Part shown: positions 2,771-60,953 of the stretch, piece by piece
How positions within the stretch are numbered: position 1 is the first letter of the stretch
Layout of the letters: each line of letters starts with the position of its first letter
DNA from: Melioribacteraceae bacterium
GTDB lineage: Bacteria; Bacteroidota; Ignavibacteria; Ignavibacteriales; Melioribacteraceae
NCBI GenBank assembly: GCA_021740785.1
Contig: JAIOZI010000007.1
Span: 1 to 64,000, forward strand
Length of the DNA stretch: 64,000 nt
Direction: 5' to 3'
Notes under the pieces: model-generated
What the model was told of the DNA's origin: nothing
The model's database searches: none
The model's input: the letters and a program-made list of their open reading frames with translations, nothing else
Program-made: the position numbers and the translations under genes

Positions 2771-2940
2771 CCCTTTTTCCCCGTTAATTATTATTTGATA
2801 GCTTTAAACATATCTTTGGGAGCTTTTTATCTTTTATAATAATAAGTAAATAAGAACTTTTTGTCAACAATTATAAATATAAAAATAGTCTTATTAGTCT
2901 AATTTAGCAATAAAAAAAATGACCCGAATATCTTGATTCC

Positions 2941-3546
2941 TCAAATGTAGTGAATTGAGCCCATATCATCAATCTCAATTTTACCTTTGGAAGAATCTAT
3001 CAGTTCGGATTTTAGCTTGTCTAATTCTCCCGGCACAATTAAAAATTCAATTCCGGGCTTTTCCTCAAAAATATTTTCTGTTATTTGTGTGTCATAATTT
3101 GAGAGAAAATGATGTACGGTTGAGATAAATTCATAATCAAATTTAATTCTGAACTTCAAATATTTTTTCTTTACTACTATTTTAGCCGTGTTTAAGGTTT
3201 CAAAAGCGGATTTATAATAAGCTTTTCCCAATGGACCCACTCCGAGCTTTGTACCACCAAAATACCTCACAACAACAACTAAAACATTAGTCAGATCGAA
3301 ATGCTGGATTGCATTCATAATCCTGATACCGGCAGTACCGTTCGGTTCACCATCATCGGAATACTTTTCTGAACCATCAATCAATTTATAAGCATAACAA
3401 TGATGAGTTGCATTATAATGTTCTTTTTTTATGGCTTCTAATATTTCAGTGCTCTCCTCAATAGATAAAATAGGAAATGCTTTCCCTATGAAACTTGAAC
3501 CTTTTTCTTTGAATTTTGATTCAGTATACAGTGCGATTGTCTTCAT
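2941..3546 (-). CDS. YigZ/IMPACT family protein
   Basis: A 201-residue UPF0029/IMPACT protein. The motif SDDGEPNGTAGIRI (about residues 62-75) and VVVVRYFGGTKLGVGPLGKAY (about 88-108, written across the region) are the family hallmarks, followed by the C-terminal ferredoxin-like DUF1949-type domain (about 135-198). Members are linked to translation and stress control by similarity to eukaryotic IMPACT, but the bacterial function is not established. It stands alone, divergent from uvrA, with 80-90 bp between. Confidence 0.85.
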   Translation of the reverse strand: MKTIALYTESKFKEKGSSFIGKAFPILSIEESTEILEAIKKEHYNATHHCYAYKLIDGSEKYSDDGEPNGTAGIRIMNAIQHFDLTNVLVVVVRYFGGTKLGVGPLGKAYYKSAFETLNTAKIVVKKKYLKFRIKFDYEFISTVHHFLSNYDTQITENIFEEKPGIEFLIVPGELDKLKSELIDSSKGKIEIDDMGSIHYI

Positions 3547-34395: not shown

Positions 34396-35946
34396 ATGAA
34401 AAAAGAAACTGAAATTGTTGTAAGACCAAATTTTATTTATGATCAAACTTATCTGCAGAAACTCATCATAAAGAAACTTCATATTTCCGAAGGGGAACTT
34501 ACGGCGTTCACTGTTCTGCGCCGTTCAATCGATGCGCGTAAATCACCGGTATTCAGATTAAAAATTGCAGCCTTCATAAATGAAAAACCCAAAGAGGTTT
34601 CCGAATCAATAAATTTATTACCCGTTACTTCGGATAAGAAAGTAATCATTGTCGGAAGCGGACCTGCCGGATTATTTGCCGCTATTCGACTAATTGAATT
34701 GGGAATTAAACCGATTATTTTTGAAAGAGGCAAGGATGTTCAAACAAGGCGAAAGGATTTAAAAGCAATTCAACAGCTAGGAGAGGTAAATCCAAACTCC
34801 AATTATTGTTTCGGTGAAGGCGGTGCAGGTACATACAGCGACGGTAAACTTTACACGCGGTCGGTAAAACGCGGGAATGTGAAACGGGTGCTGACGTTGC
34901 TTCATCAGCATGGAGCCGGAAGTGATATTTTAATTGATGCACATCCGCATATTGGTTCAAACAGGCTGCCGAAAGTCGTAAAAGCTATGAGAGACACAAT
35001 CATTAATAATAATGGGGAAATATACTTTGATTCTAAGGTTACTGATTTATTAACCGGCGAAGGAAAAGTTAAAGGTGTAGTTGTTAATGATACAGAGGAA
35101 GTTTCAGCAGATGCGGTAATTTTAGCAACCGGACATTCAGCACGAGATATTTATTATTTGTTAGATAAGAAAGGCGTTCAACTTGAACCCAAACAATTTG
35201 CAATGGGAGTAAGAGTTGAACACCCGCAGCAATTGATTGACCAAATTCAATATCATTCACACATCAGGAATGCGAATCTTCCCGCAGCAAGTTACAATCT
35301 TACATGTCAAGTTGATGATCGCGGCGTTTACTCGTTCTGCATGTGTCCGGGCGGAATAATTATTCCCGCATCAACCGAACCCGGTGAACTTGTATTAAAT
35401 GGAATGTCGGTTTCCCGCAGAGATTCTCCTTTCGCAAATTCCGGACTGGTAGTTTCTATTACAGAAAAAGATTACGATAAATATAAAGAACATGGTGTAT
35501 TTGCAGGATTGATGTATCAAAAGGAATATGAAAGAATTGCGTTTGAAGCAGGCGGTAAAACTCAAAGAGCCGCAGCTCAAAGGCTTACCGATTTTATACA
35601 AAAGAAATCCTCTGATTCTCTGCCGGAAACATCTTACATACCGGGTGTTGTTAGTCAGCCTCTAAACGACATAATACCGAAAGAAATTTCTGATCGTTTA
35701 ACGAAAAGCATCAAAATATTTGGAAAGAGGATGAAGGGATTCTACACAGAAGAGGCACAGATATTAGTCGCTGAGAGTAGAACGAGTTCACCGGTTAGAA
35801 TTCCAAGGGACAGAGATACACTCATGAATCACGATCTGAAAGGACTGTTTCCTTCAGGCGAAGGAGCCGGTTATGCGGGTGGAATTGTATCGGCTGCTAT
35901 TGACGGTGAGAATTGCGCGGATGCAGCTGTTAGGTATGTTGGTTAG
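34396..35946 (+). CDS. FAD-dependent dehydrogenase, COG2509 type
   Basis: A 516-residue flavoprotein. The FAD-binding GxGxxG motif is VIIVGSGPAGLFAAIRLIE (about 81-99), preceded by a ~75-residue N-terminal domain (KLHISEGELTAFTVLRRSID). YCFGEGGAGTYSDGKLYTR (about 135-153), ILATGHSARDIYYLL (about 247) and the C-terminal GLFPSGEGAGYAGGI (about 488) are family markers. Members are uncharacterised oxidoreductases; the substrate is unknown. The start is the ATG at 34396; a TTG three bases earlier is in frame. AGAAGGGG ribosome site is near 34383-34390. Confidence 0.85.
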   Translation: MKKETEIVVRPNFIYDQTYLQKLIIKKLHISEGELTAFTVLRRSIDARKSPVFRLKIAAFINEKPKEVSESINLLPVTSDKKVIIVGSGPAGLFAAIRLIELGIKPIIFERGKDVQTRRKDLKAIQQLGEVNPNSNYCFGEGGAGTYSDGKLYTRSVKRGNVKRVLTLLHQHGAGSDILIDAHPHIGSNRLPKVVKAMRDTIINNNGEIYFDSKVTDLLTGEGKVKGVVVNDTEEVSADAVILATGHSARDIYYLLDKKGVQLEPKQFAMGVRVEHPQQLIDQIQYHSHIRNANLPAASYNLTCQVDDRGVYSFCMCPGGIIIPASTEPGELVLNGMSVSRRDSPFANSGLVVSITEKDYDKYKEHGVFAGLMYQKEYERIAFEAGGKTQRAAAQRLTDFIQKKSSDSLPETSYIPGVVSQPLNDIIPKEISDRLTKSIKIFGKRMKGFYTEEAQILVAESRTSSPVRIPRDRDTLMNHDLKGLFPSGEGAGYAGGIVSAAIDGENCADAAVRYVG

Positions 35947-36026
35947 TTATTGGGTTATTGAGTTATTAAGTCATTGGGTCATTAAGTCATTGGGTCATTA
36001 AGTCATTGGGTTATTGAGTTACTTAG
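35947..36026. repeat. 16-bp tandem repeat array
   Basis: About four and a half copies of a 16-bp unit of the form TYATTRRGTCATTGGG follow the FAD dehydrogenase stop directly. Each unit is itself two 8-bp half-units, and neighbours differ by one or two bases. There are no spacers, so it is not CRISPR. Confidence 0.8.
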
Positions 36027-36097
36027 GATGGGCGAATTTATTATTGACTATTGATTATTGCAAAATCTTGGTGCTAGAAATATAAAACGAAAGTAAA

Positions 36098-36146
36098 TCA
36101 TCCAACCAATCCATCCCTTCATCCATCCATCCCTCCATCCACTCAA
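36098..36146. repeat. CATC-type short tandem repeat
   Basis: A low-complexity stretch built on CATC/CCATC units (plus strand). On the minus strand it can be read as a tryptophan/methionine-rich peptide, but no real gene is supported. Confidence 0.55.
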
Positions 36147-36206
36147 ACCAACTTTCTCGCAACGGTGCAGCGAACGCAACGAAATGGCAAGCAAATAAAC
36201 AATCTT

Positions 36207-36376
36207 GTCTTTGTAGAGCGGACTTTAGTTCGCTTTTGCTTGAGAGAATAAGCGAGATAAATCTTGCCTGCCCAGACAAAGTCGGGTAAACTCGGCAGTC
36301 AACAGAATTCATTCTACGTAATCCGTTCGACAGACTTCCTCGCAATCTGATGAGTAGACGGCCTCTACAATTATTT
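36207..36376. repeat. dispersed repeat G, copy 1 (GTAGAGCGGAC family)
   Basis: About 170 bp, starting GTCTTTGTAGAGCGGAC and ending near CTCTACAAT, with many internal inverted repeats. A second copy lies at 37880-38065 with the same order of segments. The outer ends (GTAGAG ... CTCTAC) are inverted to each other, giving the element the shape of a large imperfect palindrome. A minimal form lies after pntB (59099-59144). Confidence 0.65.
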
Positions 36377-36436
36377 CATAAACACAAACTTCTTACTGGC
36401 CGAAAACTTGCCGGATGAATACCTCATTTTAAATGC
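36365..36436 (-). pseudogene. remnant of a T9SS sorting-domain tail
   Basis: On the minus strand the sequence reads FSASKKFVFMK and a stop at 36376-36374, the last residues of a T9SS type A sorting domain. Only this tail is recognisable; no open gene leads into it. It adjoins repeat G. Confidence 0.5.
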
Positions 36437-36471
36437 TGGTTTTAATGAACGGGCATTGTATCTTTAGCTAT

Positions 36472-36946
36472 TTGGTTTTCAGATTTAGTCCTTATGAACT
36501 CACCTTAATCCTCTCTTCACTAAGAGAGGACAGAATTGTATAAATCTGAAAACCTTCGTTTCTTTTCGAGAACTCGTTCCCCTCTCGGAAAAGAGAGGGG
36601 AAAAGTTGGGGTGAGTTAAGAATTGCATTTTAGCAATCTCTATTCCATCTTTGCGATTGATTTTAATCGGCTGTTCCGGAATCTCAATAAAAGCCATGAA
36701 TGCGCGAGTGGTTGTTTAGTTATGTAGAGCCGATCGCCTGATCGGCTTTAAAAATTCTTTCATTCAAATTAAATTTAGCGATTCAGCGAATCGCTCTACA
36801 ATCATTTCATAAGCACAAACTTCTTATTGGCTGAAAACTCGCCCGCTGTAATCCTGTAAATATAAACATCGCTGGAAAGTTTGCTGCCGTCAAATGTGAA
36901 CTGGTATCTATTTTATGTCACGGTGCGACCGTAACATCCGTGAAAT
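36472..36946. repeat. long direct repeat P, copy 1, including a sorting-domain tail
   Basis: A ~475-bp unit repeated at 37264-37825 with high identity. From left to right it holds: an outer-stem element (AACTCACC at 36497-36504 pairing with GGTGAGTT at 36610-36617) with two inner hairpins; a GAGCCGATC/GATCGGCT hairpin near 36728; a GCGATTC/GAATCGC hairpin near 36779; and, on the minus strand, ~39 codons of a T9SS tail (YQFTFDGSKLSS ... KKFVLMK, stop at about 36808). The coding tail is cut at its 5' side by a TGTCACGGT palindrome. Confidence 0.75.
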
Positions 36947-37263
36947 TGATTCTCGAACATCGTAGATGTTCAAATTTTTGTAGAGAACCATTTTCATTAA
37001 CAATCAGATCATTGGAGATGATCAATAAAATCATATCCACAAATTATTTTCAATTATAAATCCTCTACAAGGATTAAATCATATGGTTATTTCATCAGTC
37101 TACAGTAATTTCAACCTCTACGAGGTTGGGAATTCTTACAGTGACGGGAACTGCTACACAAATCATTTATGATTTATGGATTATACTCGAAGTGTCGCAA
37201 ACCTTTATCCCTCGTAACTAATAAGTGTATGAGGATCTTCCCGACACTGGTTTCTGCTTCATT
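36947..37263. repeat. cluster of short palindromes between the two P copies
   Basis: No gene. Four short inverted repeats with small loops occur in ~220 bp: GAACATC-gta-GATGTTC (36955-36971), AATCCT-ctaca-AGGATT (37059-37075), CAACCTC-tac-GAGGTTG (37112-37128) and AAATCAT-tt-ATGATTT (37160-37175). Three of the loops contain GTA, TAC or CTAC. Confidence 0.65.
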
Positions 37264-37825
37264 AGGTTTTCAGATTTAGTCCTTATGAACTCACCTTAAT
37301 CTCGCCAGAGTCCGGCGGAGTTCGTAGAATCCGTTAGATTCTACGGAATCTAACGATCTGCCGACCTCCCAACCTTCATTTTATTATAGTTGGTAAATCT
37401 TCATAAGAGAGGACAGATTTGTATAAATCTGAAAACCTTAGTTTCTTTCGAGAACTCGTTCCCCTCTCGGAAAAGAGAGGGGAAAAGTTGGGGTGAGTTA
37501 AGAATTGCATTTTAGCAATCTATCATTCCACCCTTGCGATTGATTTTAATTGGCTGTACCGGAATCTCAATAAAAGCCATGAATGAGCGAATGATTGTTT
37601 AGTTATGTAGAGCCGATCGCCTGATCGGCTCTAAAAATTCTTTCATTCAAATTAATTTTAGCGATTCAGCGAATCGCTCTACAATCATTTCATCAGCACA
37701 AACTTCTTACTGGCTGAAAACTCGCCCGCTGTAATCCTGTAAATATAAATACCGCTGGAAAGTTTGCTGCCGTCAAATGTGAACTGGTATCTATTTTATG
37801 TCACGGTGCGACCGTGACATCCGTG
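37264..37825. repeat. long direct repeat P, copy 2, with an extra inserted palindrome block
   Basis: The second copy of the unit at 36472-36946. It differs by about 95 extra bases near 37301-37396 inside its first hairpin. The inserted block contains two overlapping hairpins (37323-37345 and 37332-37355). The minus-strand T9SS tail is repeated here (SSGIYIYRITAGEFSASKK..., ending near 37688), as is the flanking perfect palindrome TGTCACGGT-gcg-ACCGTGACA (37799-37819). Confidence 0.75.
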
Positions 37826-37879
37826 TACAGAACATACATCCACTAATCCATTTTTCCAATATTCCAAAATGACAATCTG

Positions 37880-38065
37880 GTCTTTGTAGAACGGACTTTT
37901 GTTCGCTTTTCTTTGAGCGAGTGAGCGAGATAAATCTCGCCTGCCCCAACAAAGTCGGGTAAACCCGACAAAGTCGGGTAAACCCGGCGGTCAACGAACT
38001 TCGTTCGACAGAATTCGTCGCAATCTGACGATCGGACTCTGACGAGCAGACGGGCTCTACAATTT
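37880..38065. repeat. dispersed repeat G, copy 2
   Basis: Second copy of the 36207-36376 unit, with a local duplication of a GTCGGGTAAACCCG palindrome inside it. The rest of the gap up to 38224 has one more hairpin (CCCCG ... CGGGG, 38156-38178) and no gene that I can support. Confidence 0.65.
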
Positions 38066-38224
38066 TAACACAGACACTAAACGCTAGTATTTCAAGAATG
38101 GTGCGAATACGCAAATGAAAAAAATGATGAGTAATTCTGAGATCAGCAATAATTACCCCGCGCAGGGCGTGCACGGGGTTTAAGTCAACAACAATTCATC
38201 TCACCAACAAAAAAGAATTTTATT

Positions 38225-38662
38225 TTAGTTCGCTGCAATTCTAAATTCCTGGTTACCAGGTGAATCCGATTTTTCGAATTGATATGCTTTATAGAATTGT
38301 TCGCACATTCTAGCTAATCTTTGGTCATCATCAAGTTCACCTGTTCTCTTCACCAAGTAAACACCACGTTCATCACCGATTTTAATCAGCGCTAATGCAG
38401 CAACTAATCTTGCACATACATTATCGTTTGTACGCAGCATTTTCATTAAAGGAATTACTGCTTTTTCGGATTTCATTTCTCCCAAAAAGTAAGCGCAGCT
38501 ATTACGAAGTCCACAGTTATCTGATGAAAGTCCGGCAAGATAATTTGCCTCTATAATTTCCTTGGTCAATGTTGAACTTTTTTTGGCGGCTTCTCCACCT
38601 GATGCTAAAAGCGGTAAGGAGAGTAATAAGATAAGTACGGATAGCAATTGATACTTTTTCAT
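38225..38662 (-). CDS. secreted HEAT-repeat protein
   Basis: The ATG at 38662, preceded by a G-rich ribosome site, gives a 145-residue protein with a signal peptide (MKKYQLLSVLILLLSLPLLASG, residues 1-22). A longer frame upstream lacks a start signal and would bury the signal peptide. The mature part holds two to three HEAT-type helical repeats (NSCAYFLGEMKSEKAVIPLMKML, CARLVAALALIKIGDERGVYLV). Such small repeat proteins bind partners in the periplasm. No function is apparent; it stands alone next to the repeat region. Confidence 0.7.
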   Translation of the reverse strand: MKKYQLLSVLILLLSLPLLASGGEAAKKSSTLTKEIIEANYLAGLSSDNCGLRNSCAYFLGEMKSEKAVIPLMKMLRTNDNVCARLVAALALIKIGDERGVYLVKRTGELDDDQRLARMCEQFYKAYQFEKSDSPGNQEFRIAAN

Positions 38663-38827
38663 TTTGTCCCCCCAGACATTTATGAATTTTATTTGCTCTA
38701 CTGTTATAGACGAGGGAAGTGATAAAAAAGTTGTATAAAAAGTCAAGAGAAATGAAAAATATTTTAAAAAAATAAAGGCATCAATAGAATATAATAGATA
38801 TACTAATGATGCCCTATGAATCCAATT

Positions 38828-40345
38828 CTAAATTACTGCTTTTTCTTCTTTTAATTCTTTTTCTAACATTTCATTAATTGCATGTGCGGCACGCCTGCCT
38901 TCACCCATCGCTAAGATAACAGTTGCGGCGCCAAGTACAATATCTCCGCCGGCAAATATTCTATCGACTGAAGATTTTTGATCACCGTTAACCACAATAT
39001 TTCCCCATTTATTGACTTCGAGTTCAGGGGTGGTTTGACTAATCAAAGGATTACTTCCGTTACCGATTGCAACTATAACGGTATCGACATCGATGATAAA
39101 CTCACTACCCGGTATTACTACCGGTCGTCTTCTTCCCGAACTATCAGGTTCACCTAATTCATATTTCAAACATTCCATTGCTTTTACACGACCTTTATCA
39201 TCCCCGATTATTCGCTTAGCATTCTGAAGAAATTTAAATTCTATTCCTTCTTCTTTTGCGTGAGCAACCTCTTCTTTTCTTGCGGGCATTTCAACTTCGG
39301 TTCTTCTATAAACCACATATACTTTTTCAGCTCCGAGTCTAACTGCCATACGTGCGGAATCCATTGCAACGTTTCCGCCGCCCAATACTGCGACTCGTTG
39401 TGATTTGTAAATCGGTGTATCGGCATGGCTGCGGTCGAATGCACGCATTAAATTTGCTCGTGTTAAATATTCATTTGCTGAGAATACTCCAACGAGATTT
39501 TCACCCTCAATATTCATAAACATCGGGAGTCCGGCGCCGGTACCTACAAATACTGCATCAAAGCCGTCTTTTTCGATTAAGTCCATTAGTTTTCTTGTTC
39601 TGCCAACAACAAAGTTTGTTTGAAATTTCACACCCATTTTTTCAAGAGTGTTTATTTCTTCATCCACAATTTCATTTGGAAGCCTGAACTCCGGGATACC
39701 GTAACGCATCACGCCACCAAGTTTGTGAAAGGCTTCGAAGATTGTTACATCGTGACCTTCGCGACGTACATCTGCAGCTACTACCAAACCAGCCGGTCCG
39801 CTTCCTACAACCGCAACTTTTTTACCGGTTTCAGGTTTTACTTCCGGAGGTTTAACATTACCCTGAGCACGTTCCCAATCGGCAATGAATCTTTCGAGTC
39901 TTCCGATTGCAACCGCTTTATCTACATCTTTCAGTGATTTACCAATGGTACAGTTCATTTGACATTGCGTCTCTTGCGGACAAACTCTTCCGCAAATTGA
40001 CGGGAGCAAACTTACTTTTTTAATTTCATCGGCGGCTGCCTGGAATTCACCTTCCGCAACATGCTTTACAAATGTCGGTATATCAATTCCAACGGGACAA
40101 TCATTCACACACTGTTTCTTCGGGCATTGGAGGCATCTTATCGCTTCTAATCTAGCTTGTTCCGCCGCATATCCTAATGCAACCTCTTCTAAATTTTTTG
40201 ATCTGACAATTGGATCTTGAGCCGGCATTTCTTGAGCTGGAATTTTTAATCTATCTTTTGGTTTAAGCGGACCTTCAAAATTAATTACATCTTTTAATAA
40301 GGCTCTAGCTTCATCAATCAATTCTTCCGGGGTTAGATGATTCAT
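38828..40345 (-). CDS. nfnB: NfnB/GltA-type flavoprotein subunit (NADPH-linked)
   Basis: A 505-residue protein. The N-terminal cysteine-rich segments (CLQCPKKQCVNDCPVG at about 70-85 and CGRVCPQETQCQMNC at about 117-131) bind Fe-S clusters; FAD-binding VAVVGSGPAGLVVAADV (about 178-194) and NADP-binding VAVLGGGNVAMDSAR (about 315) follow, with FAGGDIVLGAATVILAMGEGR near the end. This is the large subunit of NfnAB (ferredoxin:NADP+ oxidoreductase) or the homotetrameric GltA-like glutamate synthase subunit. The partner gene immediately upstream (overlap 4 bp) favours NfnAB, which splits electrons between NADPH, NADH and ferredoxin. No large glutamate synthase gene is nearby. Confidence 0.85.
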   Translation of the reverse strand: MNHLTPEELIDEARALLKDVINFEGPLKPKDRLKIPAQEMPAQDPIVRSKNLEEVALGYAAEQARLEAIRCLQCPKKQCVNDCPVGIDIPTFVKHVAEGEFQAAADEIKKVSLLPSICGRVCPQETQCQMNCTIGKSLKDVDKAVAIGRLERFIADWERAQGNVKPPEVKPETGKKVAVVGSGPAGLVVAADVRREGHDVTIFEAFHKLGGVMRYGIPEFRLPNEIVDEEINTLEKMGVKFQTNFVVGRTRKLMDLIEKDGFDAVFVGTGAGLPMFMNIEGENLVGVFSANEYLTRANLMRAFDRSHADTPIYKSQRVAVLGGGNVAMDSARMAVRLGAEKVYVVYRRTEVEMPARKEEVAHAKEEGIEFKFLQNAKRIIGDDKGRVKAMECLKYELGEPDSSGRRRPVVIPGSEFIIDVDTVIVAIGNGSNPLISQTTPELEVNKWGNIVVNGDQKSSVDRIFAGGDIVLGAATVILAMGEGRRAAHAINEMLEKELKEEKAVI

Positions 40346-45999: not shown

Positions 46000-48900
46000 A
46001 TGCTGACTTTATCACAAAATATAAACTTAAAAACAACCCTACTCTTCTTTATGTTGATGCTATTTACAACGCACACTTCTTTTGCTCAATATTCCGGGGA
46101 AGCACTTGCTTTTTCAGTTACAGGTGATCCGGAATATGCAACAGGTACGGGTATTTCAACTTCAATTTCCAATTTAACACTTGAGGCTTGGGTATTCTTA
46201 TTGGGAACAACTGCTGATCCTCAGAGATTTGTTACTATAGGAGGAGAGGCTGCAGTTTTAAGAGTTATTAATAACGATTACCTGGAATTTTTTATTACAA
46301 CCGGTGGAACACCCAAAAACTTAATATTTGCGAATGTTTTAAACAGCCGCCAATGGTATCATGTTGCCGGCACCTGGGATGGAACTACAATGAAACTTTT
46401 TCTGGATGGAGAAGAAGTTGCAAGCAGTACACCGGGAGGAATTTTAGATTCTCCTGATGGAAATGTAATGTTAAGTCATGACGGGGATGGCGGGAATGAA
46501 TCATTGTATGGACTTATTGAGGAAGTTCGGTTTTGGGATGCAGCGAGAACTGAAGAACAAATCAAAAATAATATGTTTACCGAACTTGTAGGTTCTGAAA
46601 CAGGATTAAGTAACTATTGGAAATTGAACGGCAACGGGAATGATGAAAAAGGTTCGGCAGATTTGACCTTATATAATGGTCCCGTTTGGCAATTTTCGGG
46701 CGCTTTTTACGGACCCAAGCGTGCATTACAGTTCGATGGGACGGATGATCACGTGAATTGTGGAAATGATAACAGTCTCGATCTAACCTCAGCGCTCAGT
46801 ATTGAGGCATGGGTTAAACCTGTATCCGGTTCAAGTATAAAAACTATTGTCTCCAAGAAAGCAAGCGGTGCCGGAAATCCCGGTTACTCTTTCTATATAA
46901 ACAGTTTTGAAACTACCGATCAGAAACTTGTTTTCGAAACCCAAAATGCAATTCTTAAAACAGATAATGCAGTAATAACCTGGGGAGAATGGCACCATGT
47001 AGCCGTAACCACGGACGGAACAACTACAAAGATTTATGTGAATGGAAAAGAGGAGCCTTCTACCGGTAGTGTTAATTTAAGCAGCACTTCAGAAAATTGT
47101 ACAATCGGAAGTTTTCCCGATGGAAACACATACAACTTAAGCGGCGCTATAGATGAAGTAAGAATTTGGAGCGACGTAAGAACAGGCGACGAAATAAGAA
47201 ATAATTTCTGTAATGTACTTAGAGGAAATGAAACCGATCTTGCAGGTTATTGGAGATTTGACCAGGCGGCTGATACTCACGCTCCCGACCAAACAGGAAC
47301 TAACCACGGTACCTTGAATAATATGACAAATGAAGATTGGATTTCAGCCGATGAATTTAATACATGGACCGGACAAAATAGCGGTAATACTTGGCAATCT
47401 AATGATTTAAACTGGAGTTTAAATCGTATGCCCACTTCTTCGGATAACGTCTGTATTCCTAATTTGGAGAATATTTTTGTTAACTCTGCAAATGCTGTCT
47501 GTAATAATCTAGCAGTACATTCAGGCAGAACTTTATATATTTTTAGTGGATACACTCTATCTGTTGCTGGAAATTTATGGGTTGTTGGCAGTCTCTCAAC
47601 ATCCGGCAGCAATCCATATCTTAAATTTACCGGCGGTTCCAAAACTCACTCCATATATGTGTCTTCTCTAGACTACGTAGAGTTAGATGATGTCAATGGC
47701 GCTGAGTTAGTTAGCAATTTAACAGTTAATAATGATTTGAAAATAACTTCCGGCGATCTTGATCTTAACGGAAATATATTAACTCTTGGCGGCAGTGCAA
47801 CCTTTAGTGAAACAGCAGGCAACACTGTTACCGGTTCATCCGGATATATTCAAACAACAAGAAATTTGAATGCACCGTCGAGTGAAAATGTTGCCGGTCT
47901 CGGTGCAATAATAACAAGTTCGGCTGATTTAGGTTCAACCAATATAAAACGAGGACACGCTGCTCAAAGTGGTAACAGTAATTCCAGCATAAACCGTTAC
48001 TATGATATTTCACCATCAAATAATTCCGAGTTGAATGCAACACTTATTTTTTGCTATGATGACAGCGAAACTTCCGGGTTTACCGAGGATAATTTATGTT
48101 TATTCAGATCCGATGACGGATCAACATGGACACAAGAAGGAGGTAGTTGCAATTCGACCACTAACCAAATTGAGTTAAGCGGAATAGATGCTTTTTCAAT
48201 GTGGACAGCAAGCGACGATTCTTCGCCATTACCTGTTGAGCTAACATATTTTGAAGGTAATGCAACCGAAGATGGAGTCTTACTTGAATGGAAAACTGCG
48301 ACGGAAGTGAATAATTACGGATTTGAAGTGGAAAGGACATTAAACCCACGCCTGTCCTTCGGACATCCCCTCCCGGGAGGGAAAAAAAAGGGGTGGGTAA
48401 AGATTGGGTTTGTTGAAGGATACGGTAACTCCAACTCGCCGAAAGATTATAGTTTCACAAATCCTCTTAATCCTAATCCTAATCTTACTCTTACTCATGC
48501 TTCTTCTCTAATGTACCGCCTTAAACAGATTGACACAGACGGCTCATTCGAATATTCCGATATTGTTGAAGTAACTCTCAACAATGAATTGCCTGCAAAA
48601 TTTGAGTTGTTCCAAAATTATCCTAATCCTTTTAATCCAACAACAACAATAAAGTATACAATCCCAGCCCTCACCCGTCCTTCGGACACTCTCTCCCCGA
48701 GGGAGAGGGAAGGGGTGAGGGTTTCTCTAACAATCTATAATACCCTCGGGCAGCAAGTTGCAACACTTATAAAGCGAGAATTAGCACCCGGCGAACATAA
48801 GGTAACATTCAACGCACAAAATTTAAGCAGCGGAGTTTATTTCTACCGGCTTACTGTTGGAGATTTTACCGACATAAAGAAATTATCTGTTATCAAGTAA
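46000..48900 (+). CDS. LamG-domain T9SS cargo protein with two in-frame palindromic inserts
   Basis: A 966-residue secreted protein. Signal peptide (about 1-29, ending TSFAQ); two LamG/concanavalin-like domains (about 32-215 and 240-420; SIEAWVKPVSGSS, WHHVAVTTDGTTTKIYVNGKE); a beta-rich middle (450-740); a module beginning LPVELTYFEGNATEDGVLLEWKT (about 746); and the T9SS type A sorting domain from FELFQNYPNPFNPTT to LSVIK. LamG domains bind glycans or proteins outside the cell. Two GC-rich palindromic segments interrupt the C-terminal region in frame, encoding LNPRLSFGHPLPGGKK (about 782-800) and ALTRPSDTLSPREREGVR (about 890-907). GGAGAG ribosome site. It follows the receiver gene closely. 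Confidence 0.85.
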   Translation: MLTLSQNINLKTTLLFFMLMLFTTHTSFAQYSGEALAFSVTGDPEYATGTGISTSISNLTLEAWVFLLGTTADPQRFVTIGGEAAVLRVINNDYLEFFITTGGTPKNLIFANVLNSRQWYHVAGTWDGTTMKLFLDGEEVASSTPGGILDSPDGNVMLSHDGDGGNESLYGLIEEVRFWDAARTEEQIKNNMFTELVGSETGLSNYWKLNGNGNDEKGSADLTLYNGPVWQFSGAFYGPKRALQFDGTDDHVNCGNDNSLDLTSALSIEAWVKPVSGSSIKTIVSKKASGAGNPGYSFYINSFETTDQKLVFETQNAILKTDNAVITWGEWHHVAVTTDGTTTKIYVNGKEEPSTGSVNLSSTSENCTIGSFPDGNTYNLSGAIDEVRIWSDVRTGDEIRNNFCNVLRGNETDLAGYWRFDQAADTHAPDQTGTNHGTLNNMTNEDWISADEFNTWTGQNSGNTWQSNDLNWSLNRMPTSSDNVCIPNLENIFVNSANAVCNNLAVHSGRTLYIFSGYTLSVAGNLWVVGSLSTSGSNPYLKFTGGSKTHSIYVSSLDYVELDDVNGAELVSNLTVNNDLKITSGDLDLNGNILTLGGSATFSETAGNTVTGSSGYIQTTRNLNAPSSENVAGLGAIITSSADLGSTNIKRGHAAQSGNSNSSINRYYDISPSNNSELNATLIFCYDDSETSGFTEDNLCLFRSDDGSTWTQEGGSCNSTTNQIELSGIDAFSMWTASDDSSPLPVELTYFEGNATEDGVLLEWKTATEVNNYGFEVERTLNPRLSFGHPLPGGKKKGWVKIGFVEGYGNSNSPKDYSFTNPLNPNPNLTLTHASSLMYRLKQIDTDGSFEYSDIVEVTLNNELPAKFELFQNYPNPFNPTTTIKYTIPALTRPSDTLSPREREGVRVSLTIYNTLGQQVATLIKRELAPGEHKVTFNAQNLSSGVYFYRLTVGDFTDIKKLSVIK
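48344..48398. repeat. in-frame palindromic element, type A, copy 1
   Basis: 55 bp inside the LamG cargo gene. Outer arms ACCCACGCC and GGGGTGGGT enclose a GTCC-TTC-GGAC hairpin and a CCCTCCCGGGAGGG palindrome. It is much more GC-rich than its surroundings and keeps the reading frame. Confidence 0.8.
48668..48721. repeat. in-frame palindromic element, type B, copy 1
   Basis: 54 bp, exactly 18 codons, inside the sorting domain of the LamG cargo gene. Outer arms CCCTCACCC and GGGTGAGGG enclose GTCC-TTC-GGAC and a CTCTCC...GGGAGAG hairpin. The host domain would read ...KYTIP followed by VSLTIYNTLG without it. Confidence 0.85.
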
Positions 48901-52937: not shown

Positions 52938-54614
52938 ATGATTCGACTTGTAATTATTATAATATTCACATCCCAGATGTTTGCACAGCGTTATCTTGAT
53001 TCTACCTTTATTCCTGTTCAAACACATACAAACCAAGCTTATGCGACAGCCCCCAAATTAAATGCACCTTGGACGGATGAGAATAATACCACCGAAGTTG
53101 ATTTAACGATGCATATATTTCAACCGGAAGGTGACACAGAAGATTCAAGACCGGCTGTACTGATGTTTCACTCGGGTGCTTTCGTTAGCGGAAGCAAAGA
53201 AAACGAAGATATGATAAAGTTCTGCAAAAATTTAACAGGTAAGGGCTATGTAACCGCTTCAGTTCAGTACCGGTTGGGAATGAATTCAGTAAGTCAGGTA
53301 AGTGGAGAAAGAGCTGTTTATAGAGGGATCCAGGATGGGCGGGCTGCCGTTAGATATATAAAAAGTAATGCGGCTGCACTAAAAATTGATACAGCAAACA
53401 TATTTATGTTGGGAAGCAGCGCAGGATCGTTTATCGCGTTACATAATTTGTTCATGAACGAAGAGAGCGAAAGACCGGCTGGAACTTTCGCAACTAATTA
53501 TGATATATATCCTTTCTCAGCAATACCTGATTTGGGAACATTAGATGCCATTGAACCAAGTCTTAATTCCGGTAAAGGCTCACATCCCAAAGCAATTGCA
53601 GTTATGTGGGGCGCTCTGCAGAATACTACATTAATTCTACCGGAAGATCTAAATTACCCTGTATTATTAATACACGGCAAGGCGGATGGAACGGTGCCAT
53701 TTGGCGTTGGTGCACCCTTCGGCTGGTCGGGTTTCCCGGATACTTATGGTAGCAGCCCGATAAGTATGCATTTCGACGATCTTGGATTTGCATATAATTC
53801 ATATTTTGTTGATGATGAAGATCATGAGTTTTATGGCTGCTATAATGGTAATTGGGACGATGCTCATCCTATCAATAGTTATTGGAATATTATTTTAACT
53901 AAAGTAACAAACTTTTTTTATAACAATCTTGATGAATCACTTTTACCTGTTGAGTTAACTAATTTTACTGCCAACATAAGTGAAAGAAATGTAGAATTAG
54001 AATGGAAAACTGCAACCGAAGTGAATAATTACGGATTTGAAGTTGAGAGGCAGTATCAAGTATCAAGCCCGCCTCGGCTTGCCGGAGGCGAGACGGGTAT
54101 CGAGTATCAAGATTCAAGCAATTGGGAAACAATTGGTTTTGTACAAGGGCACGGTACAACAAACTCACCAAAGAATTACGAATTTACGGATTCCGAATTG
54201 CCGAATGTGGAATCAGTCGATTACCGCTTAAAACAAATTGATTTGGACGGCAATTTTGAATACTCGGATATTGTTACTGTTGGGACAAAAAACCTTCTAT
54301 CCCAACCAACAGAATTTGTACTGCATCAAAATTACCCGAATCCGTTTAACCCAACAACAACAATAAAGTATAAAATACCAGCCCTCACCCGTCCTTCGGA
54401 CACCCTCTCCCCGAGGGAGAGGGACGGGGTGAGGGTTTCTATATCAATCTATAACACCCTCGGGCAACAGGTTGCAGCCCTTGTAAATGAACAAAAAGAG
54501 CCGGGTAATTACGAAACAGAATTTGATGCTTCAAAATTAGCCAGCGGAATTTATTTCTATCGGCTGCAAGCAGGAAATTTTACCTCGGTGAAAAAACTTA
54601 TGCTGATGAAATAG
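52938..54614 (+). CDS. T9SS-sorted alpha/beta-hydrolase (esterase/lipase-like)
   Basis: A 558-residue secreted enzyme. Start at the ATG 52938 (MIRLVIIIIFTSQMFAQ, signal peptide 1-17); a GTG 9 bp upstream is less likely, and an AAAGGTGAG ribosome site precedes it. The hydrolase domain (about 20-330) has the oxyanion motif LMFHSGAFVSGS (about 72-83), the nucleophile serine in MLGSSAGSFIAL (about 157-168), an aspartate in LLIHGKADGTVPFG (about 240) and the histidine in DDEDHEFYG (about 297), so a full triad. The LPVELTNFTANISE module and T9SS sorting domain (QNYPNPFNPTT to KKLMLMK) complete it. Two palindromic inserts occur in frame (about 375-388 and 482-499). Confidence 0.85.
   Translation: MIRLVIIIIFTSQMFAQRYLDSTFIPVQTHTNQAYATAPKLNAPWTDENNTTEVDLTMHIFQPEGDTEDSRPAVLMFHSGAFVSGSKENEDMIKFCKNLTGKGYVTASVQYRLGMNSVSQVSGERAVYRGIQDGRAAVRYIKSNAAALKIDTANIFMLGSSAGSFIALHNLFMNEESERPAGTFATNYDIYPFSAIPDLGTLDAIEPSLNSGKGSHPKAIAVMWGALQNTTLILPEDLNYPVLLIHGKADGTVPFGVGAPFGWSGFPDTYGSSPISMHFDDLGFAYNSYFVDDEDHEFYGCYNGNWDDAHPINSYWNIILTKVTNFFYNNLDESLLPVELTNFTANISERNVELEWKTATEVNNYGFEVERQYQVSSPPRLAGGETGIEYQDSSNWETIGFVQGHGTTNSPKNYEFTDSELPNVESVDYRLKQIDLDGNFEYSDIVTVGTKNLLSQPTEFVLHQNYPNPFNPTTTIKYKIPALTRPSDTLSPRERDGVRVSISIYNTLGQQVAALVNEQKEPGNYETEFDASKLASGIYFYRLQAGNFTSVKKLMLMK
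54062..54101. repeat. in-frame palindromic element, type C
   Basis: About 40 bp forming an imperfect palindrome (ATCAAGCCCGCCTC ... GAGGC ... CGGGTAT) inside the hydrolase gene, encoding PPRLAGGETGIE in frame. It sits just after FEVER, the site used by type A elements in the two preceding genes, but has a different sequence. Confidence 0.7.
54382..54435. repeat. in-frame palindromic element, type B, copy 2
   Basis: 54 bp, nearly identical to the copy at 48668-48721, in the same codon phase and at the same position of the sorting domain. Outer arms CCCTCACCC and GGGTGAGGG; inner hairpins GTCC-TTC-GGAC and CCCTCTCC...GGGAGAGGG. Confidence 0.85.
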
Positions 54615-59156: not shown

Positions 59157-60953
59157 TTATTTTATAAGCAGCATTTTCTTCACAGAGGTATATTTACCTG
59201 TGTTGATTCTATAGAAATACACACCACTGGCTAAATTTAATGAATTGAAATTCACTGTATAGTATCCCGCCTCCTGGAATCTATTAACTAATGTTATAAC
59301 TGTTTTGCCAAGTATGTTTACAACACTCAAAACAACATGACCCGATTTTGGGATTGCATAATCAATTGTTGTTGACGGATTAAAAGGATTGGGATAATTT
59401 TGGTACAAATAAAATGAAAGAGGTTGAGGTTGAGGTTGTGTTTTGCTTATACCAGTTATAACATTCTCATTGTAAGTGACTGTTGTTACATTACCTGTGT
59501 GAATGATATCCAGGTCTCCATCACCATCAACATCAGCCGTAATAGGAGATACTGAATTACCAACCTCATTTCTCAAACCCAAATTAAAACTATTTACAGA
59601 TGAATCAGCCCAAAAATCTGTAGGATTAAAATTAAGATAGGTGCTCATTCTCACATTGCCCGTATCTCCGCACTCAGGACATACTTGTAGATTTGAAACA
59701 ATCATATCAAAACGATTGTCCCCATTTAAATCACCGGATGTGAAAAAGGCAAAGTTTTCGGCACCGGAAAAAGCCGTTTCAACATAGCCGCAGAAGGTTG
59801 AATCGGGATTTTGTAAGATTAATTGCCCTCCGCCTAATGATCCAAATGAAGCCAGATCATTCAAGCCGTCTAGATTGTAATCGGCAACAAATAATTGTCT
59901 TAAATCTTCTAACCAATAATCAAATGGACATATATAAAAACGTGTTCTAAATGAGTTGGTGAAATCTCCGAGTCCGTTGTTTAAATAAATATATGCACCT
60001 TCGAACTGAGTGCCGGGCTCGGAAGGCCATGTATTAAGCAAGACCAGATCCAGGTCCCCATCATTGTCCATATCGACCAAGTCAGCTTCAGATATATAAT
60101 TATCTAGATAAACTGAGTTAGTATCTTTGATAAATCTACCTGTGCCATCATTCATTAATTTAATCCATGAATAATCTACATACTCACTCCATTGTTCTTT
60201 AGCAATTAAATCAATAAATCCATCTCCGTTAATATCACCCTTCGCGATAATAAGAGCGCCAAAAAAAATTACATTCTGATATAAATAAAAACTGCCTGTG
60301 CTATCTCCTAAAAACACATCAAATCCAAAGGTGGAATACGAAATGACGTCTTTGAATTTATCATTATTAACATCAACCAGATATTTTACATTACTTATTC
60401 CGGGAATTTGTTCACTAAATGTAAAGCCGCCTGCTCCATCATTAAATATAACTTTTCCGCTGCTTGAAATTAAGTCAATGTCCCCATCATCGTCATAGTC
60501 ATTGGCTATAGCATTTTTACTCTGGTAGTTAAATCTGGCAAGACTATCAAAATTAGCATTTGTTGTATTTGTAATACCAATCGTAAAACTCCATTGGAAA
60601 GAAAGCTTTGAACTATCAGTGCAAGAAATCAATGGTCCAAAAAAAACGTCGATAATTTCTCCACAAAAGAGTGATTTTTGTGGAGAAAAAATAAATGTAT
60701 TTTCTACGGTATCAATTTCGATAGTGCCTAGAACCAATCCGCTGTTAGTACCATAAACTTGAAAAATATTATTTGGTTGAAAAGAAAATAAATATATAGG
60801 AGTATCCAACTGTGCAACAATCTGGGAGGTTGATGATACTCCGACTTCATTTTGTTCCGGCGTTACTGATATAACATTTGTAGTCTGCGCTGATGATAAT
60901 ATCGTTATAAAAAATATGGAGAAATAAGTTTTTAAAAATTTCATACTACTCAT
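59157..60953 (-). CDS. FG-GAP/VCBS-repeat T9SS cargo protein
   Basis: A 598-residue secreted protein. Signal peptide (about 1-23, ending LSSAQ; an alternative start at 60944 begins MKFLKTYF); an Ig-like Big_5/SbsA-type domain (about 28-130; VISVTPEQNEVGVSSTSQIV); a run of about seven VCBS/FG-GAP repeats (150-500) with calcium-binding D-x-D-x-D-G loops (DYDDDGDIDLIS, DINGDGFIDLIA, DMDNDGDLDLVL, DVDGDGDLDIIH) forming an integrin-like propeller; and the T9SS sorting domain (YLYQNYPNPFNPSTT to KKMLLIK). Probably an adhesin or scaffold. The sequence between propeller and sorting domain has the low-complexity run PQPQP. Confidence 0.87.
   Translation of the reverse strand: MSSMKFLKTYFSIFFITILSSAQTTNVISVTPEQNEVGVSSTSQIVAQLDTPIYLFSFQPNNIFQVYGTNSGLVLGTIEIDTVENTFIFSPQKSLFCGEIIDVFFGPLISCTDSSKLSFQWSFTIGITNTTNANFDSLARFNYQSKNAIANDYDDDGDIDLISSSGKVIFNDGAGGFTFSEQIPGISNVKYLVDVNNDKFKDVISYSTFGFDVFLGDSTGSFYLYQNVIFFGALIIAKGDINGDGFIDLIAKEQWSEYVDYSWIKLMNDGTGRFIKDTNSVYLDNYISEADLVDMDNDGDLDLVLLNTWPSEPGTQFEGAYIYLNNGLGDFTNSFRTRFYICPFDYWLEDLRQLFVADYNLDGLNDLASFGSLGGGQLILQNPDSTFCGYVETAFSGAENFAFFTSGDLNGDNRFDMIVSNLQVCPECGDTGNVRMSTYLNFNPTDFWADSSVNSFNLGLRNEVGNSVSPITADVDGDGDLDIIHTGNVTTVTYNENVITGISKTQPQPQPLSFYLYQNYPNPFNPSTTIDYAIPKSGHVVLSVVNILGKTVITLVNRFQEAGYYTVNFNSLNLASGVYFYRINTGKYTSVKKMLLIK

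Follow-up and report, generated by a model that had tools for sequence, protein, structure and literature searches.

A palindrome-bearing direct repeat with sorting-tail remnants in a Melioribacteraceae genome, and the movement of type IX sorting tails between cargo genes

The stretch of DNA analysed here, referred to as the window, comprises 64,000 nt of a Melioribacteraceae bacterium (assembly GCA_021740785.1, contig JAIOZI010000007.1, positions 1 to 64,000). It contains a long direct repeat with copies at 36470-36942 and 37261-37826, as an earlier note made from the sequence alone had described. The copies are 95.3% identical over 430 nt, and a further block of 41 nt shows 98% identity. Both have the same orientation, and on the minus strand each reads hairpin C, remnant of a type IX sorting tail, module S and palindrome P. 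S is an element with the ends TTGTAGAGC/GCTCTACA, followed by a spacer, and P combines the arms AACTCACC/GGTGAGTT with a CCCCTCTC/GAGAGGGG hairpin. The outer arms are present in both copies (36497/36610 and 37288/37492), as are the hairpins CCCCTCTC..GAGAGGGG (36579-36600 and 37461-37482).

In copy 1, hairpin C (TGTCACGGTGCGACCGTAACA) lies at 36915-36937, the tail remnant at 36803-36909 (minus strand), S at 36632-36802 (minus strand, with the palindrome TTGTAGAGC..GCTCTACA at its gene-proximal end) and P, in a plain form with arms 111 nt apart from start to start, at 36470-36631 (minus strand). The corresponding parts of copy 2 are hairpin C at 37798-37820, found by a genome search with up to two mismatches, the tail remnant at 37686-37792 (minus strand), identified by translation and DNA match, S at 37514-37685 (minus strand), delimited by the repeat alignment, and P at 37261-37513 (minus strand). 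This second P is a nested form with arms 202 nt apart; it holds a palindromic element at about 37302-37398 that is missing from copy 1. In translation the two tail remnants read YQFTFDGSKLSS[D/G][V/I]YIYRITAGEFSA[N/S]KKFVLMK up to the terminal stop, with another stop just upstream. A minus-strand sorting-tail remnant is present in each copy, as had been noted before, with a length of 34-36 codons instead of the 39 given then.

Two further elements separate the copies. M3, a cluster of small palindromes (36945-37143), has copies of 94-98% identity at C99 (two), C14, C21 and C103, and others at C56 and C77. M4 (37180-37253), a palindrome of the GTGTCGGGAA..TTCCCGACAC type, recurs at C56, C21, C65, C55, C103, C99 and C77 with 77-91% identity. 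The whole is flanked by a third, short tail remnant and by two R repeats of the TTGTAGAGC... type. The short remnant (36363-36412, minus strand) reads SGKFSASKKFVFMK followed by a stop and shares 90% identity with the tail of either copy. The R repeats (36192-36353 and 37872-38031) are 79% identical to each other; the first is 88% identical to a sequence at C21 and resembles DNA near a Y1 transposase gene. Hairpin C was found at seven places in the genome with up to two mismatches, both window copies included, and at none with the reversed control; at C76 it is directly joined to P.

P resembles the coding palindromes of the window in layout, and the earlier note had proposed that they are related. 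This kinship was dropped, since the match of the gene-proximal half of P to the "type B" coding palindromes (53 columns, 70% identity) is not significant (E 0.09). The in-frame palindromes lie within the sorting domain (IPALTRPSDTLSPRERxGVRVS) at 48619-48897 and 54333-54611 of the window. Further tails carry inserts of other sequence at the same place, and 49 of 150 tails in the genome measure at least 252 nt, partly for reasons other than inserts. Rfam gave no family match for 35000-39000 up to an E value of 1, and integron attC sites were rejected, as the arms do not fit in a by-eye comparison with the attC consensus. The neighbouring FAD protein has its best relatives in Melioribacter and other Ignavibacteriales (65-67% identity), which places the lineage within Ignavibacteriales and close to Melioribacter. 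The stretch looks like intergenic debris in which dispersed palindromic repeats are mixed with 3′ ends copied from type IX cargo genes.

The window piece has at least 67 matches in its own genome, itself included (40 of 98 candidates scored), which excludes chance for the repeat. Short matches, mostly over the tail or M3, were obtained in at least 20 of 37 relatives, with 10 candidates scored per genome. For P, a covariance model gave at least 15 copies in the genome (best 150 of 3320 candidates scored). Nine of the 15 lie behind a tail or a tail remnant (C17 twice, C56, C65, C55, C114 twice, C11, and C77 with 34 nt of tail), and no tail was seen beside P at the remaining six (C8, C17:74.7k, C59, C49, C33, C14), of which those at C8, C59 and C33 are less than 500 bp from a contig end. 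C21 adds one more P, which is divided by an insert and follows an intact tail gene. The nested form of copy 2, including the same inner element, is shared with C56, C17:74.7k and C8:111.2k, and the plain form of copy 1 with C114, C65 and C55. Moreover, an intact gene for 674 aa at C21 has a 3′ end that is 94% identical over 316 nt to the tail of copy 1 together with S and part of P, compared to 95% over 430 nt between the two copies. Pieces spread over the genome, copies with different P forms and the likeness of copy 1 to C21 cannot be the product of a single recent tandem duplication. The outcome that would have refuted the earlier note, a unit confined to this place and explained by one local duplication, is not what was observed.

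Insertion of one palindromic element into another was also seen outside the window. At C21 an element of about 150 bp with the inverted ends TGCTGTCAA/TTGACAGCA lies inside the hairpin of P (L032, about 2938-3088). Of the two M3 copies that lie close together at C99, a palindromic insert interrupts one (L037 1723-1909), and the other is whole. The region is a pile of inserted palindromes. DNA like the L037 insert occurs about 30 nt 3′ of the stop codon of the tail gene at C33. Tail-free S modules, two at C99 (L037) and one at C17:74.5k, end within 3 nt of the border between S and tail. A gene for a group II intron reverse transcriptase (RVT_1, GIIM; L034 3545-4861) is located shortly before the S and P unit at C17:74.5k.

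Intact cargo genes that end in the same tail and repeat, which the earlier note had proposed to look for, do exist on other contigs: tail, S and P follow each other at C56, C21 and C11, and tail and P at C55 and C65. The intact genes at these five places and at C114 match PF18962 at the C terminus with 42.6-49.8 bits (cut-off 27). The gene at C55 encodes a Peptidase_C13 protein and that at C65 a zinc carboxypeptidase (Peptidase_M14); C56 has FG-GAP and C11 a weak PQQ_2 match, and C21 shows no family apart from its tail region. At C114 (L040 3754-4329), tandem units of tail and P lie at the end of an intact 507-aa export gene, and the second of these tails lacks its 5′ part.

The genome encodes at least 150 PF18962 tails (150 of 221 candidates scored), five of them in the window. 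All 150 were taken with their flanks, and DNA and cargo were compared pairwise (11175 pairs). Cargo was regarded as unrelated at a blastp E value above 1e-3, using at most 333 residues before the tail, and a pair was counted as spanning if the common DNA included the tail, crossed the stop codon and continued for 60 nt or more. Eleven of the 11175 pairs, involving 13 of the 150 genes, have unrelated cargo and common DNA that extends from the tail past the stop codon over 75-500 bp of 3′ flank. Another 10 spanning pairs have related cargo, and 1173 unrelated pairs have a common tail below the 60-nt mark. As a control we used 284 genes from 20 stretches picked by position, none with a tail motif, and none of their 40186 pairs shares DNA across the stop codon. 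As these genes share no tail, this control tests just for repeats that cross a stop codon, and 11 versus 1173 is the fairer comparison. The 11 pairs overlap in genes and stand for about four events, represented by the clusters C11/C21/C56 (S and P behind the tail), C55/C65 (P behind the tail), C37/C49/C85, and C8_26546 with C108, C24, C32 and C8_74448. C37/C49/C85, with three of the 11 pairs, is the weakest cluster: its common flank is partly a tandem repeat of the GTTATTGA type, and the remainder might be repeats that each gene gained on its own. The assembly is a draft in 115 contigs, and several of the sharing genes lie at contig ends.

For 3781 pairs with unrelated cargo, counted on 80-codon tails only (89 of 150 kept), tail DNA identity had a median of 0.549, a 99th percentile of 0.776 and a maximum of 0.949. 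All 11 spanning pairs are among the top 60 of these values, and C55/C65, with a common P behind the tail, ranks first with 0.949. The tail at C39 is common with both C55 and C65, and a stem-loop just past its stop codon is common with C55, which in turn shares P with C65. The tail region of C39/C55/C65 is a mosaic. The window itself contributes an intact gene (59157-60953) whose tail (59157-59396, minus strand) has a DNA identity of 0.878 to the tail of a gene at C62, without similarity of the cargo.

Paralogous genes with different tails point in the same direction. C49 and C56 carry one duplicated block of two genes. In one pair, C49_76898 and C56_13818, cargo DNA identity is at least 0.85 in eight of ten windows before the tail (0.70 and 0.78 in the other two), the tails are 0.827 identical and the flanks are unrelated. 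C56_13818 instead matches C21, with 0.873 in the tail and 0.95-0.97 in the first 80 nt of the flank. The neighbouring pair of the same block, C49_75192/C56_15520, has kept both tail (0.970) and flank. The drop in tail identity between C49 and C56 is modest, two cargo windows being equally low, so that the contrast between the flanks carries the case. An AU test on the tails, run with a long-branch warning from the tree program, rejected the C49/C56 pair as a clade only at p 0.047. For the four-gene family C8_74448/C24/C32/C108 the clade was not rejected (p 0.216).

In order to locate the switch, we compared third-base identities along the tails. In 47 unrelated pairs with a tail identity above 0.77, which come from 17 genes and are not independent of each other, the value for codons 1-7 (YPNPFNP) was 0.39, compared to 0.43 in the 3734 other pairs. 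For codons 8-14 it was 0.60 versus 0.40. Since the YPNPFNP codons are at background and identity jumps just behind them, crossovers were placed there. In C55/C65/C39 and C17/C62 the third-base identity rises from 0.0-0.57 in the motif codons to 1.00 behind them; for the window gene 59157-60953 and its C62 counterpart it is 0.43 in the YPNPFNP codons and 1.00 in the next seven. In these genes the motif has stayed with the cargo and the rest has been exchanged. The large clade shows a less sharp step than the small clusters do.

Thirty tails were compared in each of three relatives, out of 85, at least 150 and 68 matches in G008, G037 and G016, respectively. Loci lacking a recognised motif were dropped (one, two and one of 30), and for identity 80-codon tails were kept (27 of 29, 24 of 28 and 21 of 29). 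G008 belongs to the same family and consists of one contig. Its loci L191 and L192 have unrelated cargo, tails with an identity of 0.93-1.00, and a likeness that ends at the stop codon. L189/L191 and L188/L192, in turn, have near-identical cargo up to the motif, followed by tails with identities of 0.60 and 0.59. These are clean tail swaps between paralogues, with the switch within the motif codons. At both loci the common tail belongs to the last gene in a row of tail genes, and L191 has an ordinary terminator-like hairpin after the stop. Among the 29 tails of G008 no pair with unrelated cargo had common DNA spanning the stop codon. The samples from G037 and G016 contained one unrelated pair above 0.75 each, with tail identities of 0.950 and 0.792. 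The G037 pair (L306/L309), located about 1 kb apart and 0.77 identical in the first 60 nt of the flank, shows no step behind YPNPFNP, identity being already 0.86 in codons 1-7. In G016 the switch of L333/L338 lies inside the tail, near codon 28, and a paralogue pair that is identical over 120 nt before the tail has a tail identity of 0.779.

Tail and flank are common to unrelated cargo genes, paralogues are discordant, and tails were swapped in relatives, one of them a single-contig genome; the position of the 5′ boundary shows in the third-base identities. It is thus well supported that sorting tails do move between cargo genes, and the proposal of the earlier note that export tails can be moved or replaced holds. 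We consider it likely that the tail is an exchangeable module moved by ectopic homologous recombination among many tails, with the window stretch as its debris and the palindromes as passengers. Because at least 150 tails share homologous DNA, recombination between them, by gene conversion or crossing over and presumably of the RecA type, could give one cargo gene the tail of a different one. On the 5′ side the crossover tends to fall at the YPNPFNP codons, and the copied tract would reach as far as the stop codon or break off somewhere in the repeats that follow. S and P behind the tail would travel along and lengthen the homology. Incomplete or unequal events would leave orphan tail remnants, and we infer that the three in the window arose by such copying of tails. 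Most swaps would be tolerated, since type IX sorting tails are taken to be interchangeable for export.

Alternatively, the palindromic repeats could be the driving force: P, S and their kin, prone to form cruciforms or recognised by a transposase, would cause breakage or transposition, and the tail would ride in a mobile 3′ unit. The position of P behind a tail or remnant in nine of 15 copies is in line with this, and so are other palindromes after the stop codon in further genes with shared tails (C108, C24, C33, C17_59169). Window modules (P, S, M3, M4, R or C) were found within 400 nt behind nine of 150 tail genes compared to one of 284 others (Fisher p 0.0004), but this test is biased, as the modules were drawn from a tail region, their copies spread with tails and are not independent, and the control flanks are more often coding. 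A simple gapless-stem score, applied after a single too-short flank had been set aside from each of the sets of 133 and 284, gave longer hairpins behind the 132 tail genes that do not share tails than behind control genes (p 2e-9). However, the longest hairpin behind the 17 shared-tail genes is no stronger than that behind the 132 other tail genes (p 0.20), and no hairpins peculiar to shared tails were seen. P or S occurs within 170 nt after the stop in five of these 17 genes, and 12 of 17 have neither. The swapped tails of G008 have no common 3′ flank, tail remnants start at varying bases and not at a fixed one, and the 5′ crossover at the YPNPFNP codons lies inside the gene. Palindromes do belong to the copied tract in some genes (C56/C21/C11, C55/C65), as the earlier note had implied, but its idea that recombination between palindromes moves the tail was not borne out. 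A driving role of the palindromes is, in our view, unlikely, and to judge by the sequences they are most likely passengers that lengthen the homology.

In line with a driving role of the repeats, three Y1_Tnp (RAYT-like) matches were found in the genome. One of these genes has R-type repeats close by, together with a 26-nt match to a copy of M3; P, S and M4 gave no match in the 1.9-3.3 kb around the three, and an association of P with the Y1 transposases was rejected. The gene at L009 1426-1860 encodes a Y1 transposase of the IS200 type and lies among repeats, some of them R-type. REP/REPIN elements with their RAYT (Y1) transposases and the Rickettsia palindromic elements are likewise short dispersed palindromes, some of them within coding sequence. 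P differs from REP/REPIN-RAYT systems in being a composite with nested inserts, and neither P nor S stands beside the three Y1 genes.

The tail and the palindromes downstream of it might also form a mobile export cassette, with the YPNPFNP codons as landing site, the repeats as the other end and orphan units as a reservoir. This we think slightly less probable than a driving role of the palindromes; if true, such a cassette would let the genome put new enzymes into the type IX pathway or re-tail existing cargo. That the orphan tails serve as a silent store of donors for varying the tail, as tpsC or pilS do, is quite improbable. Remnants without cargo do occur in the window and in tandem with an intact tail at C114, and they resemble live tails, but only a few orphans were encountered in passing (three in the window, one at C114 and the 34 nt at C77), those in the window and at C114 have no 5′ half of the tail including YPNPFNP, and in this one genome there was no sign that any orphan is used as donor. 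Least credible is a local duplication of a single dead cargo gene end that then decayed, all else being coincidence: the copies are 0.9 kb apart in the same orientation, and local duplication can be one step in the history of the window, but as whole explanation it is refuted by the differing P forms, the genome-wide matches and the C21 likeness, and no cargo remnant was seen in the translations of the window remnants.

Parts of this picture are known from other systems. In Porphyromonas gingivalis W83, BrickBuilt and other MITEs lie next to 29% of the sorting-domain genes (PMC4596501). S (TTGTAGAGC/GCTCTACA) and P (AACTCACC/GGTGAGTT) are short and noncoding with terminal inverted repeats, as MITEs are, and here as there miniature inverted-repeat elements adjoin type IX cargo genes, with one element nested in another. 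The P. gingivalis elements are intergenic, and the accessible part of that paper describes no sharing of tail and flank between unrelated genes (PMC4596501). In tpsA/tpsC of Neisseria meningitidis the 3′ end of an exported protein's gene is also replaced by recombination; the donors are truncated downstream cassettes, and the event is rare (PMC3848433). According to the same source, as far as it was available, the end that is swapped there matters for growth inhibition, is accompanied by an immunity gene and stays within one gene family, whereas here an export tail is exchanged across unrelated cargo (PMC3848433). The gingipains and HagA of P. gingivalis resemble our case as type IX cargo with modular common C-terminal parts and a conserved sorting domain, but in the accessible part of that work the exchange affects adhesin modules, and alleles of proteins that are related to each other, and not the tails of unrelated cargo (PMC5266723). 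In the open-licence literature searched, in so far as its texts were accessible, we found no report of a DNA-level exchange of tails between unrelated type IX cargo.

That unrelated enzymes share one export tail is commonly accepted without asking how this came about. Here the exchange happened so recently that the DNA still records it, with the crossover at or near YPNPFNP, and recruitment of type IX cargo thereby becomes testable by comparing the histories of tails and cargo across genomes. Trees built from sorting tails may also depart from the history of the proteins that carry them.
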